A DNA stretch of 64,000 nucleotides, taken from positions 1 to 64,000 of the forward strand of contig FMBT01000426.1 of NCBI GenBank assembly GCA_900095095.1. The letters are read 5' to 3'. Every line of letters starts with the position of its first letter. Position 1 is the stretch's first letter. The stretch comes from Fragilariopsis cylindrus CCMP1102. Lineage: Eukaryota; Bacillariophyta; Bacillariophyceae; Bacillariales; Bacillariaceae. The notes beneath the pieces are model-generated. The model was not told the origin of the DNA. It saw only the letters and a program-made list of their open reading frames with translations, and did not search any database. The position numbers and the translations under genes are program-made. Of this stretch, positions 4,333 to 43,945 are shown one piece after another.

Positions 4333-5260
4333 AAAAAGTTTGCTTACCCGTAACTGCACAACAATCATTAGAATTAGTATTGCTTTGATACTGTAGTGGG
4401 TGGTGATTAAAAGCTTTGGCATTGGCGATACAAGAGCATCGGCGTGTCAGGCGCGGTTTCATTCGGGGGATTGATTCTTACACTAGTACCACTTTGGTGC
4501 GTTCCATCCCTCAAACAAACATCCTTCTTTTGAATTTTCGCGCCGGGGGATCTACGTCACACGTATCGAAAGCATGGAATCTGGTCATTAATATAAAAAC
4601 TAAATAATTCCCAAAATTTTACTAGTATTTGTTAGAGTAGTATATAATAACAACTTTAGCATCAAATATATACACCTAAAAAGTCATTGTTTTAGGAAAC
4701 AAAAAGTATGAAGTTTACAATTGACCTATTGGATAGAGAATTCTTACATTCCTCATTCTCGTAACCCTACTGGTAGAGAGAAAAAGTTTGCTTATCGGTA
4801 AGGAGTTACTGCACAACAATCATTGCAGTGGGTGGTGATTACAAGCTTTGGCATTGGCGATACAAAGCGTCGGCGGGGTGTCAGGCGCGGTTTTATTCGG
4901 GGGATTCTTAGCTCAGTACTGTACTTTGGTGCGTTCCATCCCTCAAACAGACATCATTCTGTTGGAATTTTCGCGCCAGGGGACCTGTCGAAAGCATTGA
5001 ATCTAGTAATTAATATAAAAACTAGATTATCCCCAAAATTTTACTAGTATTTGCTAGTGTAGTATATAATAACAATTTTAGCATAAAGTATGTACACCTA
5101 TAAAGTCACTTTTTTGGAAAAAAAAACTGTAAAGTTTACAATTGATATATTGGATGGAGAACTGTTATATTCCTTAGTCTCCTAAGCCTACTAGTATCTC
5201 ACAATGTAGGCTCACACACAGAGCACACATTTTAGGGATTTTTATATGTATGTGTATACA
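4333..5260. repeat. Tandem ~450-bp duplication carrying a transposon tip
   Basis: Units start near 4333 and 4781. Each begins with aaaaagtttgctta, then tgcacaacaatcatt, gtgggtggtgatta, agctttggcattggcgatac and ggtgcgttccatccctcaaa, and ends with the PiggyBac-like terminal sequence (tttactagtatttg ... cctattggatagaga). The host flank and the element tip are therefore duplicated together. Only the second tip connects to the full element. The two units differ by scattered substitutions and small indels, so the duplication is not very recent. Confidence 0.75.
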
Positions 5261-5289
5261 CAACAAAAAATATCATTTGAAAGGGTTGC

Positions 5290-6480
5290 AGGTGACAGCA
5301 CTTTCTGAGTCGAGTCCATAAGTATTCTTATAGTATACTAGAACATTGTGGATGCCTCCTACCACTTTTTTGTTCTTGTGGTTGTGGAATAAATTACAAT
5401 CCACTGTTGGGGAAGGCACACAAACAACACGATTTTTGACCAGAAATCAACAACACTATATTATATTTGAAAAGGTTGCAGAGGACAACACCAGATGGAT
5501 TGGGTGTACTAGTATTCTTAAAGTATACTAGAACATTGTAGTTGCCTCCTACCACTTTTTTGTTCCTATGGTTGTGGAATAAATTACAATCCACTGTTGG
5601 GGAAGGCACACAAACAACACGATTTTTGACCAGAAATCAGCACACTATATTATATTTGAAAAGGTTGCAGAGGACAACACCAGATGGATTGGGTGTACTA
5701 GTATTCTTAAAGTATACTAGAACATTGTAGTTGCCTCCTACCACTTTTTTGTTCCTATGGTTGTGGAATAAATTACAATCCACTGTTGGGGAAGGCACAC
5801 AAACAACACGATTTTTGACCAGAAATCAGCAACAATATATCTTATTTGAAAAGGTTGCAGAGGACAACACCAGATGGGTTGGGTGCACTAGCATCCGTAT
5901 AGAATATTAGAACATTGTTGTTGCCTCCTACCACTTTTTTGTTTGTGTGGTTGTGGATTAAATACAATCTACTGTTGTGGAAGGCACACAAACAACAAGA
6001 TTTTTGACCAGAAATCAACAACACTACATTGTATTTGAAATTGTTGCAGAGGACAACACCTTCTAGGTTGGGTGTTCTATCATCCTCATAGTGTATTAGA
6101 AGATTTCAGTTGCCTTCTCCTACTTTTTTATTCCTGTGGTTGTTGAATAAATTACATTCCACTTCATGGCAGGCACACAAACAACAAGATTTATGACCAG
6201 AAATCAATAACAATATATCTCATTTGAAAGTGTTTCAGAGGACAACACCTTGTGAGTTGGGTGCACTAGCATCCATATGGTATACTAGAAGATTGTAGTT
6301 GCCTCTTACCACTTTTTTGTTTCTGTGGTTGTGGAATAAATTACAATCCACTGTTGTGGAAGCATACAAACAACAAGAGATTTTCAATCAAAATGAACAA
6401 CAATATAACTCATTTGAAAGGGTTGCAGAGGACAACACCTTCTGAGTCGGGTACACTAGCATCCATTATACCTATACCTA
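5290..6480. repeat. Subterminal tandem array, ~6 copies of 189-190 bp
   Basis: The motif ga(a)acattgta-gttgcctcc recurs at 5341, 5531, 5720, 5910, 6099 and 6288, a period of 189-190 bp. Each unit also has ccactttttt-gtt, gtggttgtggaat, tacaatccactgttg, aaggcacacaaacaac and ttgcagaggacaacacc. The first two or three units are nearly identical and later ones diverge, so new copies seem to arise at the outer side. The array lies inside the PiggyBac-like element. A second array of the same unit is at about 42940-43945. Confidence 0.9.
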
Positions 6481-9595: not shown

Positions 9596-10290
9596 ATACT
9601 TAACCCGGTAATATATCACCTCTGTTTAATGGAGATCATGTACGTTATCTTCTTTTCTACTGTAGTTGAGTGAAAGACCACATACTATTAGCATGTGTGT
9701 TGATACTCGTATATTTCCCATTATCAATCTTGATTCGAACGAAAATCACTGCTATTTAGCGCGTGTTAATTTAGCGCGCTTTATGGTTTATGTACTCAAA
9801 TCCGTTGTCTAACTTCAGCGTAATAAAATCTTCCACAAAATCCATTGGATTTGGCTAGAATGATATTATTAATAACTGAGGTGTCTAGTTCAAGTCCATC
9901 TAGCGCCATCTAACAGGCTGAATAATTTTGTATTTATCTAGCAATCAACCAGTGAAAATTGGCTATATTTTCTAAGTTAAATTATTTTTTTTGGAAAAAT
10001 AACACGTGAATTAACTAGTAAAAAAAATTAGAAATCGGCAAAAAAATCCTTATAACCTGAATCCTGTTAACCACTTAATGCGCCGTTTAGGCCCCAAAAC
10101 AGGGTTTTCCACTTTTGTGCGCACCTGAGCTGGACCATCAACATAAAGCACCAGAAGTAAGTTCCCTTTGGAATATATAGTGCACCCCATCCATATATTT
10201 TGGGATGATTCACCTTTTTGAGTGTCCACAAAACACTGCAAATGGACCATTTTGGGGGGTTATTTGATGTGTGCTGTGTGTGAGCCTACA
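9596..10290. other. Transposase 3' flank inside the element
   Basis: Non-coding. It includes a segment with ttagcgcg motifs (about 9757-9780) and the inner right inverted-repeat block (10048-10290), which is similar to 42640-42850 in the opposite orientation. No gene is seen. Confidence 0.55.
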
Positions 10291-10483
10291 TTGTGCAACA
10301 CCGGTAGGCTTAGGAGACTAAGGAATATAAGAATTCTCTATCCAATAGGTCAATTGTAAACTTCATTGCTTAATTTTTCAAAAATATATCTTTTTAGGTG
10401 TATATACTTGATGCTAAAGTTGTTGTTATATACTAGACTAACAAATACTGGTAAAAGTTGGGCATGATTTAGTTTTATATTGA

Positions 10484-15357: not shown

Positions 15358-18300
15358 TTAGTTATTATAATGTAGTTTTCGTAGTTTATACACTCTAGAT
15401 AATTCCTCCAGTATAAGATTTTCATTTGGTTGCTCATCAATAGTATTAAGACGAGAATCAGCTGGTATCCAATTAACATGCAAGTACCCTAAATTATTGA
15501 AAAAATCCCAGTCCAATCTTGCTGTATTTTTATTTTTCGATAAAGTATTATTGAGTCCAAAGAAGGAAAGTAACAGAAACAAAAAGAAATGAATTTAGAG
15601 TCTTTTACTCGTACGTGCGCACACACACACACACACAAACACAAACCATAAGTGACATATGAACACATACACACACAAACAGAAATAACGTAACATAACG
15701 TACCCGGTAAACCTGTATGGCGATTGCCTGTTTATTAATTTTTCAATGGTATTATCGAGTTTAAAGAAGGAGAGAAACAAAACAGAGCAAAAGAAATGGA
15801 GTAAGAGTCTTTTACTCGTACGCACACACAAGAAAGAGAAGAAGAAAAAATATAGACACACACGGAACGAGCAAATAAATGTACGGTACGTACTTTCTGC
15901 ACCACCTTTTTCACGATAATATATAATAACAGAGCTACCCTTTGGTAAGAATGATGCAGTAATCGCTCCCCCACCACAGTACGTTATAAACACTTTTTAG
16001 TAGTGGTTTGTTGGAATGGATTTTCGTAACATCATGTTATGAGTGAGTCGTCGATACAATAATACAAGCAGAATATATAGAAAAAAACAGAAAAGGCAAG
16101 GAGGAAGTGAATGCAAGCAATGAGATAATAAGAAGGCAAGACAAACAAATTTCAATAAGATACAGAGCGATTCATTCATTTCGATTGCGATTGATTCATT
16201 TGACATCGTAGTATTACATCTCTAACGTCACGTACCCGCAGTCTTGGATGCTAATATAATTTGTTCTTCTAATGATAATTGAGATAATTTATGTGTTTCC
16301 ACGACTATATTCATTTCACTTTCAGATGGTAGACCATAAAATTTTCTTGTGTCGTCCAAATTAATTGTGTTTCTTAGATGTTCTGCTTCACGCTTAAATC
16401 CTATACCACGTGTTTCCGATGAGTAAGCTGAAAATATGACCAACAGTGGTTCATTTGGTAGTAAATCTGTTATTTTATTTGGTATTATTTGTTGTACTTC
16501 TTTATTATTCTTATTCTTGTTGGTATTATGAAATAAATTATCTATCATATAGTTACGAAAATTATATAATTGTGGTGATCGACCGGAATTTTGACTTACT
16601 TTATAATCTTTCCGTTCCCATCCATGTCCAACTTTACCATCCCCATGATCACTAATACCCCCAAATCCAGCTAAACCATTTTTAGAACATATTAATACCT
16701 TTTGACGTTTATGTTTTGGTCGATGTTGTTTTTCTTGATCTTGTTTATTAAATAGTTGTAATTCAATTGCTTTATTAGTTGTGATTGGTACTTTGGTTTG
16801 ATTCGGTATATTTGACATTGACGCTGCCTCATCAAAGTACTTCTGCTTCGATCGTTTCGTACCCATTAATATAGCGAATTTTTGTAACATTTTATGACAT
16901 GCTTTGGCACGTGTATCTAACCAATCACATCCCGCCCATAATCCACGTTCACCTGGTAGTATATAACGTATTGGTAGTAAGTCTACCATTTCATTACCAG
17001 TACTACTATTATCATCATTATCATCATCAATATCTGAATGTAAAAAGCCGTACATTTCAAGCAATGTATACATTGGTAAAAAATCGTCTGGTTACGTTGA
17101 TAGAGTGAAGTAAAGTGAAGTATGTATGTATGTATGTATGTATGGGAGTAGAATGCACACAATGCATACACAATGAATTGAGTTGATTTGGAACCGTACG
17201 GGATAGTAGAGTAGTAGCAAAACACAAATAATTTGTTATCAAATCAAATCAAATCAAATCAAAAGAAATTACGTTTACGAAACAAGAATGGAATGCAATG
17301 AATCGAAGAAGAAGAGAAGTAACAAAATGCAAACCAAGCCAGAAGAAAATGAATAGGAGAAGAAGAAGAAGAAGAAAAATGCGGCAAGTGAGTGAGTAAG
17401 ATCTGTTGAGCAAGTAATAAAAAGGACACGTACGAATGTACGTACGTACGTACGCCGCAAAGAAGAAGAAGATGATGACAGACAAAGATCAATAAAATGA
17501 AGGACGACAAAACAACACAAACCAAAACAAGTAGTAGTAGTAGTAGTAGTAGTTATAGTTACGTACCCCAAACAAGATGACCAGGATTGGAGGCGGATAA
17601 GGAATGAAATGGTATCATAATCACCGAGGATGGTAATGTATAGACATCATAGTTTTTATTTTTTGGTTTTTGTTGTAATTCAATGTCAATTTCAATGTCC
17701 TCTTGTAGTGATTTATAACGTATCGTTGGAAACCATTTTAATCGTTGACCATCAATTTCACCCCATTTGCCATTCATACTACCAATAGCCACCCCGTACG
17801 ACGTATCACCATATTTACTTTTGACATTTTTATCATTAGTCGTCCAATACTGATCGACTATTGCTTGTCCTGCACCATCAACAATGATCGTAGTATTTCG
17901 ATAGATAGTCGAGGTGTCATCAAAATACGATGGTTGTTTGTACAAATGTTGTTTTGGAAAAAAATAAATTTTTCTACTATTTTCTATTTGTTTTTCAATT
18001 AATTTTTGGATCAATGGTGATGAGTTTGTTGAGGCTGTTGTTTCTGTTTCTGTATTATTGACTGGTGATGTACTTGTACTCTTTGTACCTGCAGTTGTAT
18101 TTGCAGTTGTACTAGTTGTATTATGTATAGATGGATCTAAATAGATCACATATTCTTCCGTAAATGTATCATAACATAATAATTGGAATTTACACGATCG
18201 ATGCATCCATGTTTGTTCTACATAGACTTTCGACCGTCGATGTTGGATTGGTGATTCCCATGTTTCGCCAACACAATGAAATTGAGAGTATAAGTCATCA

Positions 18301-18854
18301 TTATCATCATGATTTTCAAATTTGTTCTTTTTATTATTCTTATTTTTGTGTTCCTTGTCCTTTTTATTTTTGGTTCGTGGTGGGAATTTATAGATTGGAT
18401 AACCATTAAATATCCCATCAGGTTCCGGCAATATTTTTCGTTTTTGTTTTTGCTGCTCTTCTTGTTGACTAGTGCTACTTTCACTTTCACTACTACTACT
18501 TGTAGTAGTAGTACTGCTACTCTTTCTATTCTTATTCTTATTACTCTTTCCAGTACCGCCAATACCACCAATACCGCCAATCCCTTGAAGAATTAATTCT
18601 TGTTCAAAGTGAGTATCATCAGCACTAGTCCTAGTACTACTACCGCCGTAGTTAGTGTTAGTATTCGTACTGTGCTTGTAGGCTGCATCATGATACTTTT
18701 TAATTAGTATACATTGTGCAAGTCCAAATAGGAACCATGAAATTATTTTTAGTAAGGATGAAAACGATGATAATGATGATAATGATAATGATGATTTGTT
18801 ATTGTTACTACTACTTCTTTTATTATCGTGACTACTACGTATTCGTCGTCCCAT
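15358..18854 (-). CDS. GT61-family glycosyltransferase, 5 exons, 808 aa
   Basis: Exons: 18854-17567, 17087-16236, 15992-15894, 15727-15704 (24 nt) and 15521-15358. All four introns begin GTACGT, end in AG and are phase 1, and the frame closes (2427 nt). The start is the ATG at 18854: the longer frame upstream has no ATG before a stop. After a basic N-terminus, residues ~34-54 (LLKIISWFLFGLAQCILIKKY) form a type II signal anchor, as expected for a Golgi enzyme, followed by a low-complexity stem. The catalytic part has HCVGETW, HRSCKFQLLCYD, NPGHLVWDDFLPMYTLLEMYG (across the exon 1/2 junction), ILPGERGLWAGCDWLD, FSAYSSETRGIGF, YCGGGAITASFLPKGSSVIIYY and ARLDWDFFNNLGYLHVNWIP. These fit the GT61 (DUF563) family, which acts on N-glycans or O-linked sugars in plants and animals. 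The sugar and acceptor cannot be read from the sequence. Confidence 0.85.
15522..15893 (-). repeat. Two homologous introns flanking a microexon
   Basis: Introns 3 (15728-15893) and 4 (15522-15703) of the GT61-like gene share a long block. On the + strand both read attat-gagt, aaagaagga, aacaaaa-agaaat and agagtcttttactcgtacg, then a CA-rich tract, and end in gtac at the donor. The other two introns of this gene start with the same GTACGT but do not share the body. Confidence 0.8.
15704..15727 (-). other. 24-nt microexon of the GT61-like gene
   Basis: It encodes SNRHTGLPG across the joins (first and last codons split) and links GGAE to ARLDWDFF. GT61 relatives have a Gly-Leu-Pro-Ala-Arg-Leu-Asp-Trp-type sequence here, so the microexon is needed for a normal protein. 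It lies between two introns that share sequence (15728-15893 and 15522-15703). Confidence 0.75.
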
Positions 18855-42427: not shown

Positions 42428-43945
42428 CAATATAAAGAACTAAATCATGCCCAAATTTTAATAGTATTTGTTAGTCTACTATATAATAACAACTTTAGCA
42501 TCAAGTATATACACCTAAAAAGTCATATTTTTGGAAATATAAACCATGAAGTTTCTGATCGTCCTATTGGTTGGAGAATTGTTGTATTTCTTAGTCTGGT
42601 AAGCCTACTGGTATCTCAGAATGTAGGCTCACACACACAGCACACATCAAATAACCCCCCAAAAATGGCCCATTTGCAGTGTTTTGTGGACATACAGTAC
42701 ACTCAAACAGGTAAATCATCTCAAAATATGTGGATGGGGTGCATCATATATACCAAAGAGAACTAACTCTTGGTGCTTGGTGTTGATGATCCAGCTTAGG
42801 TGCGCGCAAAAGTGGAAAAACCCTGTTTTGGGGCCTAAATGGCCTATTTTTTGGTTAATGCGGCCCTACAACTTCATAACCTCCATAGAAACCTAAGCAT
42901 TAAGTGGACCTTGTAGGTATAGATATGATGGATACTAGTGCACCCAACTCAGAAGGTGTTGTCCTTTGCAACCCTTTCAAATGAGATATATTGTTGTTCA
43001 TTTTGATCAAAAATCATTTTGTTTGTGTGCCTTCCACACCAGCTAAATGAATTGCATTCCACAACCACAGAAAAAGAAATAGAAAAGTTGTGGGAGGCAA
43101 ACACAATGTTCTAGTACTCTGTGTGGGTGTTAGTGAACCTGACCCATCTATGGTGTTGTCCTCTGTTACCCTTTCAAATGAGATATTTTGTATTCATTTT
43201 TGATCAAAAATCTTGTTATTTTTGCAGGTGCAACAACAGTGAAATGAATATCATTCATCAACCACAAGCACAAAAAAGTGGTAGGAGGCAACTAAAATGT
43301 TCTAGTATACTGTGTGGATGTGAGTGCACATAACCCATTTGGTGTTGTCCTCAGCAACCCTTTCAAATGAGATACTTTGTGTTCATTTCTGATCAAAAAT
43401 CATATTGATTGTTTGTGTGCCTTCCACAATAGCAAACCGGATTTCATTCTGCAACAATAGGAACAGAAAAGTTGTTTTGGTTAATGCGGCCCTACAACTT
43501 CATAACCTCCATAGAAACCTAAGCATTATGTGGACCTTGTAGGTATGGATATAATGGATGCTAGTACACCCAACCCATCCGGTGTTGTCCTCTGCAACCC
43601 TTCCAAATAAGATATTTTGTTGTTCATTTTGATCAAAAATCTGATTGTTTGTGTGCCTTCCACAACAGCGAAATAAATATCATTTCTCAACCACAGGAAT
43701 AGAAAAGTTGCAAGAGGCAAACACAATGTTCTAGTACACTATTTGGATGTTAGTGCACCTAACCCATCTGGTGTTGTCCTCTGCAACCCTTTCAAATGAG
43801 ATTTTTTGTGGTTTATGTTGATCCAAAATCTTGTTATTTGTGTGCCTACCACAGTAGCAAACCGGATTTCATTTTGCAAACATAGCTCATTTTGATCAAA
43901 AATCTTGTTATTCGTGTGCCTTCCACAACATGACATGGTCTACTA
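42428..43945. mobile_element. Partial PiggyBac-family copy: one terminus plus array
   Basis: 42428-42640 matches the ends of the element at 5014-10479 (aactaaatcatgccc, agtatttgttagtct, tagcatcaagtatatacacc, cctactggtatct). 42640-42850 matches the sequence just inside its right end (ccatttgcagtgttttgtgg, cctgttttggggcct). Then follows the same satellite unit in the opposite orientation, with about five units at a period of ~192 bp (ggtgttgtcct near 42955, 43149, 43340, 43577, 43769). The segment tttttggttaatgcggcc ... cataacctcc occurs twice (about 42848 and 43471), so part of the array was duplicated as a block. No second terminus and no transposase are present: this is a non-autonomous or truncated copy. 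Confidence 0.75.

Follow-up and report, generated by a model that had tools for sequence, protein, structure and literature searches.

Introns 3 and 4 (i3 and i4) of a GT61-like gene of Fragilariopsis cylindrus, which flank a microexon of 24 nt, are homologous and appear to be two members of a small and old family of homologous spliceosomal introns that spread by copying, in the manner of introner-like or transposed introns; we assign this reading a probability of roughly 0.55. Related 3′ halves are present in sense orientation in unrelated predicted genes, the pair is found in both haplotypes, and the coding sequence of paralogues runs uninterrupted past both intron sites. From the sequences we infer that all five introns of the family are spliced and that introns were gained here rather than lost elsewhere. 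The analysed window comprises 64,000 nucleotides (C788:1-64000), and the genome searched was the assembly, which has 818 contigs and a total length of 67.9 Mb.

Results

The GT61-like gene lies on the minus strand and its model, inferred from frame and homology, contains five exons and four introns, all of the latter in phase 1. Exon 1 (17567..18854) has a putative start codon, the first ATG of a frame open from 18923, and is followed by intron 1 (17034..17566; GTACGT..TTCAG), exon 2 (16236..17033), intron 2 (15993..16235; GTACGT..AAAAG), exon 3 (15894..15992; VFITYCGGGAITASFLPKGSSVIIYYREKGGAE), i3 with 166 nt (15728..15893; GTACGTACC..AACAG), the microexon (15704..15727), i4 with 182 nt (15522..15703; GTACGTTATG..TACAG) and exon 5 including the stop codon (15358..15521; ARLDWDFFNNLGYLHVNWIP..). 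Together with flanking bases the microexon encodes SNRHTGLP in frame. Introns 1 and 2 do not belong to the family: neither is matched by R1, a profile model of the family's 3′ half, and the scores of intron 2 against family members are at background level. An earlier note on this DNA had placed i3, i4 and the microexon at exactly these coordinates. The sequence words which it quoted are present in both introns, and the GTACGT donor and phase 1 which it described for all four introns hold in the inferred model, with GTACGT also being the donor of all four introns on contig C124. Its designation of the gene as GT61-like agrees with a spliced piece of 344 aa passing the Pfam GT61 cut-off (28.2 vs 27 bits); this match covers the intron 2 junction, and the microexon is located outside of it.

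The microexon is probably a real exon, judging from the alignment of its eight codons with contiguous coding sequence of paralogues. The paralogue on C306 reads GVIDGRSSGKPARLDWD without a break where the spliced GT61-like protein reads GAESNRHTGLPARLDWD, the coding sequence of the paralogue on C324 is also unbroken across both intron sites, with a few extra residues, and C347 and C90 each provide a one-piece match across the sites of introns 3 and 4 at 34% identity. Introns 1 and 2 are absent from the C306 and C324 paralogues as well, with C324/C306 being contiguous at the intron 1 site, so that a wholesale loss of introns in these paralogues is as possible as a gain in the GT61-like gene.

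The homology of i3 and i4 is evident from a local alignment score of 128, as compared to a mean of 30 (sd 5.3, maximum 50) for 1000 dinucleotide shuffles of both introns, and from an E-value of 9.5e-16 in the DNA search of the genome. The shared stretch of about 94 nt extends from a core, CGTACGAGTAAAAGACTCT, to the acceptor. In i3 it occupies 15728..15822 on the minus strand, with the core being followed by a pyrimidine-rich tract, CCTTCTTTAAACTCGATAATAC and the acceptor, and in i4 it occupies 15522..15615 on the same strand. Within this 3′ half 74 of 93 aligned bases are identical, and the parts beyond a 28-nt search footprint score 65, a value reached by 0/500 shuffles. The 5′ halves, with a score of 30 that was reached by 144/500 shuffles, are not more similar than expected by chance, with the first 20 intron bases agreeing at 13 positions. 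On the acceptor side the final 20 intron bases are the same at 16 positions and, in an ungapped comparison, the final 40 at 22, as opposed to only 6 of the following 24 exon bases; the 24 exon bases preceding the donors likewise agree at 6/24. The two introns are thus homologous, and their demonstrable homology comprises the 3′ half only and ends sharply at the splice junction. The idea that they share most of their sequence, as proposed by the earlier note, is correct with regard to the homology itself, but applies to the 3′ half only.

The window has a collinear counterpart in contig C124 (82-97% identity in the main pieces), which was taken as the other haplotype. This contig contains both introns and a microexon that is identical at 24/24 positions. 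The assembly keeps two diverged haplotypes apart, both here and at the HSF and C559 loci described below, and the synonymous divergence between haplotypes amounts to 0.07 for the C559 gene, 0.14 for HSF, 0.11 for GT61 exons 2-5 and 0.21 for the whole GT61 gene. Exon 5 of C124 (window 15359-15521) exhibits 10 gap columns near the stop codon, which may shift the C-terminus of the GT61-like protein. Between i3 and i4, the 3′ halves show 14-20 differences in 93 positions, with the exact number varying with the choice of haplotypes, whereas the same halves at four sites differ between haplotypes at 14 of 378. As the difference between i3 and i4 exceeds the one between haplotypes, the intron pair predates the separation of the haplotypes. 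Two places in the window, 4590-6470 and 42430-43930, carry tandem repeats of about 190 nt in opposite orientation; these are also found on C124, as indicated by BLAST pieces displaced by about 189 nt. They are accompanied by a repeat of about 215 nt, which is seen again at window 10267-10481.

Further copies were searched for in the whole genome. With i3 and i4 as queries and E-values of up to 10, the DNA search, which scored two to three candidates, returned the two haplotypes and a TG repeat and did not return any of the HSF, SNF2-like and C559 introns; the TG repeat, located on C303, is not a family member. As this search skips common words and scored so few candidates, pattern searches were added. 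A 19-nt core pattern with up to three mismatches yielded 11 matches (19 for the reversed control), of which four were exact (i3 and i4 in two haplotypes), one contained a single mismatch (an intron of a heat-shock factor gene, HSF; C612:19134) and six contained three. From base composition, 0.0006 exact matches and 0.03 matches with one mismatch would be expected. A shorter core pattern gave five matches with up to one mismatch, all of them members, and two for the control, while a relaxed pattern with up to three mismatches gave 40 (control 24), including six exact ones that were again all members. A refined pattern resulted in 12 matches (control 11), which fell into seven with zero or one mismatch, none with two and five with three. 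All seven of the former were assigned to the family: the four GT61 introns of both haplotypes, HSF, the SNF2-like intron on C617 and a match on C640, the presumed allele of C617 that is known solely from a 27-nt match. The expectation from composition for this class is 0.0065. With up to three mismatches, the totals were barely above or below the reversed controls in two of three cases; the pattern signal is located in the class of zero to one mismatch.

Eight small stretches were examined after the relaxed pattern search, namely seven pattern matches and the C770 allele. The SNF2-like intron on C617, which had been left out of the building of R1, scored 33.5 bits with this model, and the other six pattern matches reached 15 bits at most or were not matched. 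C268, C650 and C568 (11-15 bits) as well as C166, C189 and C78 (no R1 match) were not counted as members. The best R1 score of a non-member within the 268 kb examined was 13 bits. A pattern of the 3′ block matched 71 times (reversed control 13), with some matches resembling coding repeats and one 23-mer occurring seven times. Besides the known members three of these matches were examined, on C91 (3.8 bits), at window 31705 (10.4 bits) and at C124:14080 (no R1 match listed), and none of them is a member. The remaining weak pattern matches, including C90:698765 and C754 at two mismatches, are outside the member count, and there may be more distant members among the remaining matches of the 3′ block. 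In viral contigs the core pattern gave no match, and a GT61 tail pattern gave 15, none of which was confirmed. Two other sequences were seen repeatedly: the 23-mer TTCTTCTTGAAAATCAATCATAC, perhaps part of a mobile element, in seven contigs (C80, C113, C351, C425, C489, C640 and C733), and GTACGACTAAAATGTTCGAAATCTTTTT, nearly unchanged in C166, C754 and C88, with the C166 stretch having no long open frame.

The earlier note had suggested a genome search, with introners being supported if numerous introns of this kind turned up at unrelated positions. Three further sites in three unrelated genes were found, hence some rather than many, with the resulting count of five members being a lower bound from which allele copies are excluded. 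The HSF member is a 141-nt inferred intron with an allele on C693 (94%), and the joined exons match PF00447 (HSF_DNA-bind) across the junction with 65.5 bits. HSF genes of plants have an intron at a conserved position, which would make the HSF intron an old one whose sequence was replaced, and would speak against its being at a new site. The C559 member is a 203-nt inferred intron in a gene without Pfam match and has an allele on C770. Genome-wide, the HSF intron as query found its allele and the C559 intron (E 3.1e-8), and the C559 intron found the C770 allele and HSF back (4.5e-8); additional matches of the C559 intron on C72 and C279 fall into its TG/CG-repeat part (query 27-82 and 28-69) and were rejected. 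The SNF2-like member, found by pattern, is a 127-nt inferred intron with the donor GTAAGT. Its label was read by eye, and Pfam and PDB searches with the gene fragment returned no such family. All five family sites are located in inferred introns and in sense orientation, and four of the five introns have the donor GTACGT.

Because patterns had picked these introns, the 28-nt search footprint was dropped before pairs were tested for kinship. Beyond it, the 3′ parts of seven of the ten pairs reached scores that were matched by only 0-6 of 500 shuffles: besides i3-i4 these are i3-SNF2, i4-SNF2 and HSF-C559 (0 each), i4-C559 (1), i4-HSF (4) and i3-HSF (6). The remaining three, i3-C559 (56/500), HSF-SNF2 (80/500) and C559-SNF2 (171/500), failed. 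None of the ten family pairs beat the shuffles with its 5′ halves. Single linkage by shuffles joins all five introns. A stricter control used the 3′-terminal 75 nt of 16 introns outside the family, for which the best of 80 comparisons was 35. These were GT61 introns 1 and 2 and 14 of 55 open-frame candidates, after removal of candidates that had a frame score below 300, exceeded 300 nt, belonged to the GT61 gene or lay at allele loci; the set is uncurated and some of its acceptors are surely wrong. Four of ten pairs exceed this control (i3-i4 65, HSF-C559 39, i3-SNF2 38 and i4-SNF2 36), and the links of the GT61 pair to HSF and C559 score 25-34. By the stricter control there are two groups, which are joined by the core and by these weaker scores, and genome-wide E-values link only i3-i4 and HSF-C559. 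Taken together, pattern and model suggest a family with few copies, comprising five introns or more that are distributed over four unrelated genes.

As for what the shared half may do, all nine copies (five sites with alleles) have their final AG upstream of the acceptor within the core, and most copies appear by eye to have a CTNAY-like branch site at the end of the core. The stretch from core to acceptor may therefore represent branch site, pyrimidine tract and acceptor, with splicing as its plausible role. A long AG-free stretch before the acceptor was discarded as a mark of the family, as other introns are alike in this respect. In-register repeats that could represent target-site duplications (TSDs) were inconsistent: i3 and i4 have none of 3 nt or more, HSF and the SNF2-like intron have 3 nt and C559 has 4 nt. 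The search for covarying structure revealed one stem of four pairs, of which none (0/4) changed on both sides, one was lost in C559/C770 and one in the SNF2-like intron. The folding z of the 3′ halves was 0.33 for i4 and -1.63 for i3, consensus folding was weak, and an intron-encoded structured RNA was rejected with Rfam scores far under threshold (22.4 vs 50 and 22 vs 41 bits). The lack of a consistent TSD and of a conserved fold gives no support to a DNA transposon or to a structured RNA, although decay could hide both.

In the first 80 nt, i4 (both haplotypes), C559, C770 and i3 of C124 contain 30-46 TG/GT steps, as compared to 4-25 in the 16 other introns; the values for the other members are 21 for i3 of the window, 19 for HSF and 16 for the SNF2-like intron. 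The TG-rich 5′ halves of three sites were kept out of the evidence, and the core itself does not appear repetitive by eye. A common 5′ half that has since decayed is possible.

Discussion

If the five introns are siblings, as we favour, an intron would have been copied to further places within coding sequence, in the way known of introners or transposed introns, either via an intron-containing RNA or as an element with its own acceptor. In the GT61-like gene two copies would have landed at a distance of 24 nt, with the microexon being the coding sequence that was left between them. The 5′ halves would once have been homologous as well and would have decayed by fast turnover of repeats. The earlier note had offered two origins, a double insertion of an introner and the duplication of a short intron segment. 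The occurrence of relatives in three unrelated genes speaks for a dispersed, introner-like family rather than for a single duplication on the spot. Full introner status goes too far, since the similarity stops short of the 5′ end.

An unlikely, though still serious, alternative is that the pair arose by a purely local event, in which the GT61 gene acquired a second copy of i3 or i4, either by re-insertion of the spliced intron into its own transcript or by a tandem duplication whose surplus exon copy was subsequently lost, with the likeness to the other three genes stemming from an older, separate event. Located only 24 nt apart, i3 and i4 are indeed more similar to one another, at 74/93 and 79/93, than either is to its best outside partners (53/72, 55/77 and 66/95). 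Yet the family exists outside of the GT61-like gene, and the tree, which places i3 and i4 apart from the rest, is unrooted and gives this split a bootstrap of 56 and a FastTree support of 0.22 (HSF and C559 are grouped with 65). Exon sequence is not visibly duplicated either, as the scores of the microexon against its two flanks were reached by 399 and by all 1000 of 1000 shuffles. In view of this dissimilarity and of the microexon's codons being uninterrupted in paralogues, there is no support for a tandem duplication that included exon sequence. A local re-insertion of i3 or i4 may have been the last step that made the pair.

Rather improbable, too, is that a conserved acceptor module, consisting of branch site, pyrimidine tract, acceptor and perhaps a regulatory motif, spread among existing introns by ectopic recombination or conversion, which would not involve any new intron. 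That the sharing is limited to the 3′ half fits with this idea, as does the finding that the 3′ halves vary less between haplotypes (14/378) than both the 5′ halves (26/309, p 0.013) and the synonymous positions in HSF, C559 and GT61 exons 2-5 (about 38/366 with GT61 exon 1 excluded, p 0.0005). However, GT61 introns 1 and 2, which are not part of the family, are equally similar between haplotypes (33/670, p 0.44 vs the 3′ halves), so that a special constraint on the 3′ halves is unproven, and two introns carrying such a module must still have arisen 24 nt apart. A doubtful variant would regard the acceptor half itself, about 70-110 nt with core, pyrimidine tract and 3′ splice site, as a mobile unit that replaced the 3′ ends of host introns while the host donors and 5′ halves stayed. 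If this were true, introns would have been spread by copying half an intron and not a whole one.

That the 24 nt are not an exon, but part of a single intron of 372 nt, or that the microexon is optional, appears very improbable: skipping would keep the frame owing to the 24 nt and the equal phases, but the eight codons align with the contiguous C306 coding sequence and are identical in both haplotypes. The least credible explanation is convergence of generic intron signals of this genome, as donors, pyrimidine tracts and long AG-free stretches (median 64.5 nt in the 16 other introns, 58-103 nt in the family) are common and the C559-SNF2 pair (44) scores within background, but whole-intron scores of the other nine of the ten family pairs are 54-128, against a best of 48 (mean 27) among 120 pairs of other introns and of 44 among 80 family-to-other pairs, and the core at zero to one mismatch occurs outside the members only on C268 (one mismatch with the loosest pattern, 11 bits with R1).

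Comparison with known systems of intron gain

The criteria described for introners by Gozashti et al. (2022; PMC9860276) include similarity near both boundaries, a rule meant to keep out sequences inserted within introns already present; for this reason the spread of an acceptor module stays in play here. Non-paralogous similarity with an E-value of 1e-5 or better is reached by HSF-C559 in both directions. At least four introns are asked for, and pattern and model give five introns in four genes, with genome-wide E-values for i3-i4 and HSF-C559 only. At the 3′ boundary, i3 and i4 are similar up to the acceptor, the SNF2-like intron can be aligned with gaps and the ends of HSF and C559 are poorly alignable, whereas at the 5′ boundary all ten pairs are on the level of shuffles. 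Low complexity, judged by eye as in that paper, is not apparent. As similarity is lacking at the 5′ boundary and the agreement with the other criteria is partial, the family is not classed as an introner. It resembles the introners described there in that similar introns occur in unrelated genes in sense orientation, and differs from them by falling short of the 5′ boundary, by its few copies, by a divergence of 15-38% over the 3′ half and by the absence of a clear TSD. The word diatom does not occur in the main text of that paper, and among the matches listed for diatom introners and intron gain no such family is reported in titles and abstract openings.

Fungal introner-like elements have been described with tens to hundreds of near-identical copies, stable folds and a fast decay to ordinary introns (PMC4457414, PMC3443670). 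Like these, the present family is in sense orientation, bound to introns and without consistent TSD, and it looks decayed. Tandem genomic duplication, a further route of intron gain (PMC3443670), would likewise place copies side by side, but no visibly duplicated exon sequence is present at the GT61 pair. Unlike the fungal elements, the family consists of five diverged members, as a lower bound, and has no stable fold; a similarly fast decay would fit with five diverged survivors.

Nearly identical pairs of introns within a single gene are reportedly found in Oikopleura. Such pairs were attributed to reverse splicing (PMC3879977), and the GT61 pair is like them in consisting of two similar introns in one gene, but unlike them i3 and i4 are 78-85% identical over one half and have relatives in other genes. 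Introner families have mostly been described from young, near-identical copies. Diverged siblings, two of which frame a microexon, would show what an aged introner burst looks like, and, if the favoured reading holds, the microexon would be a case of coding sequence trapped between two insertions.
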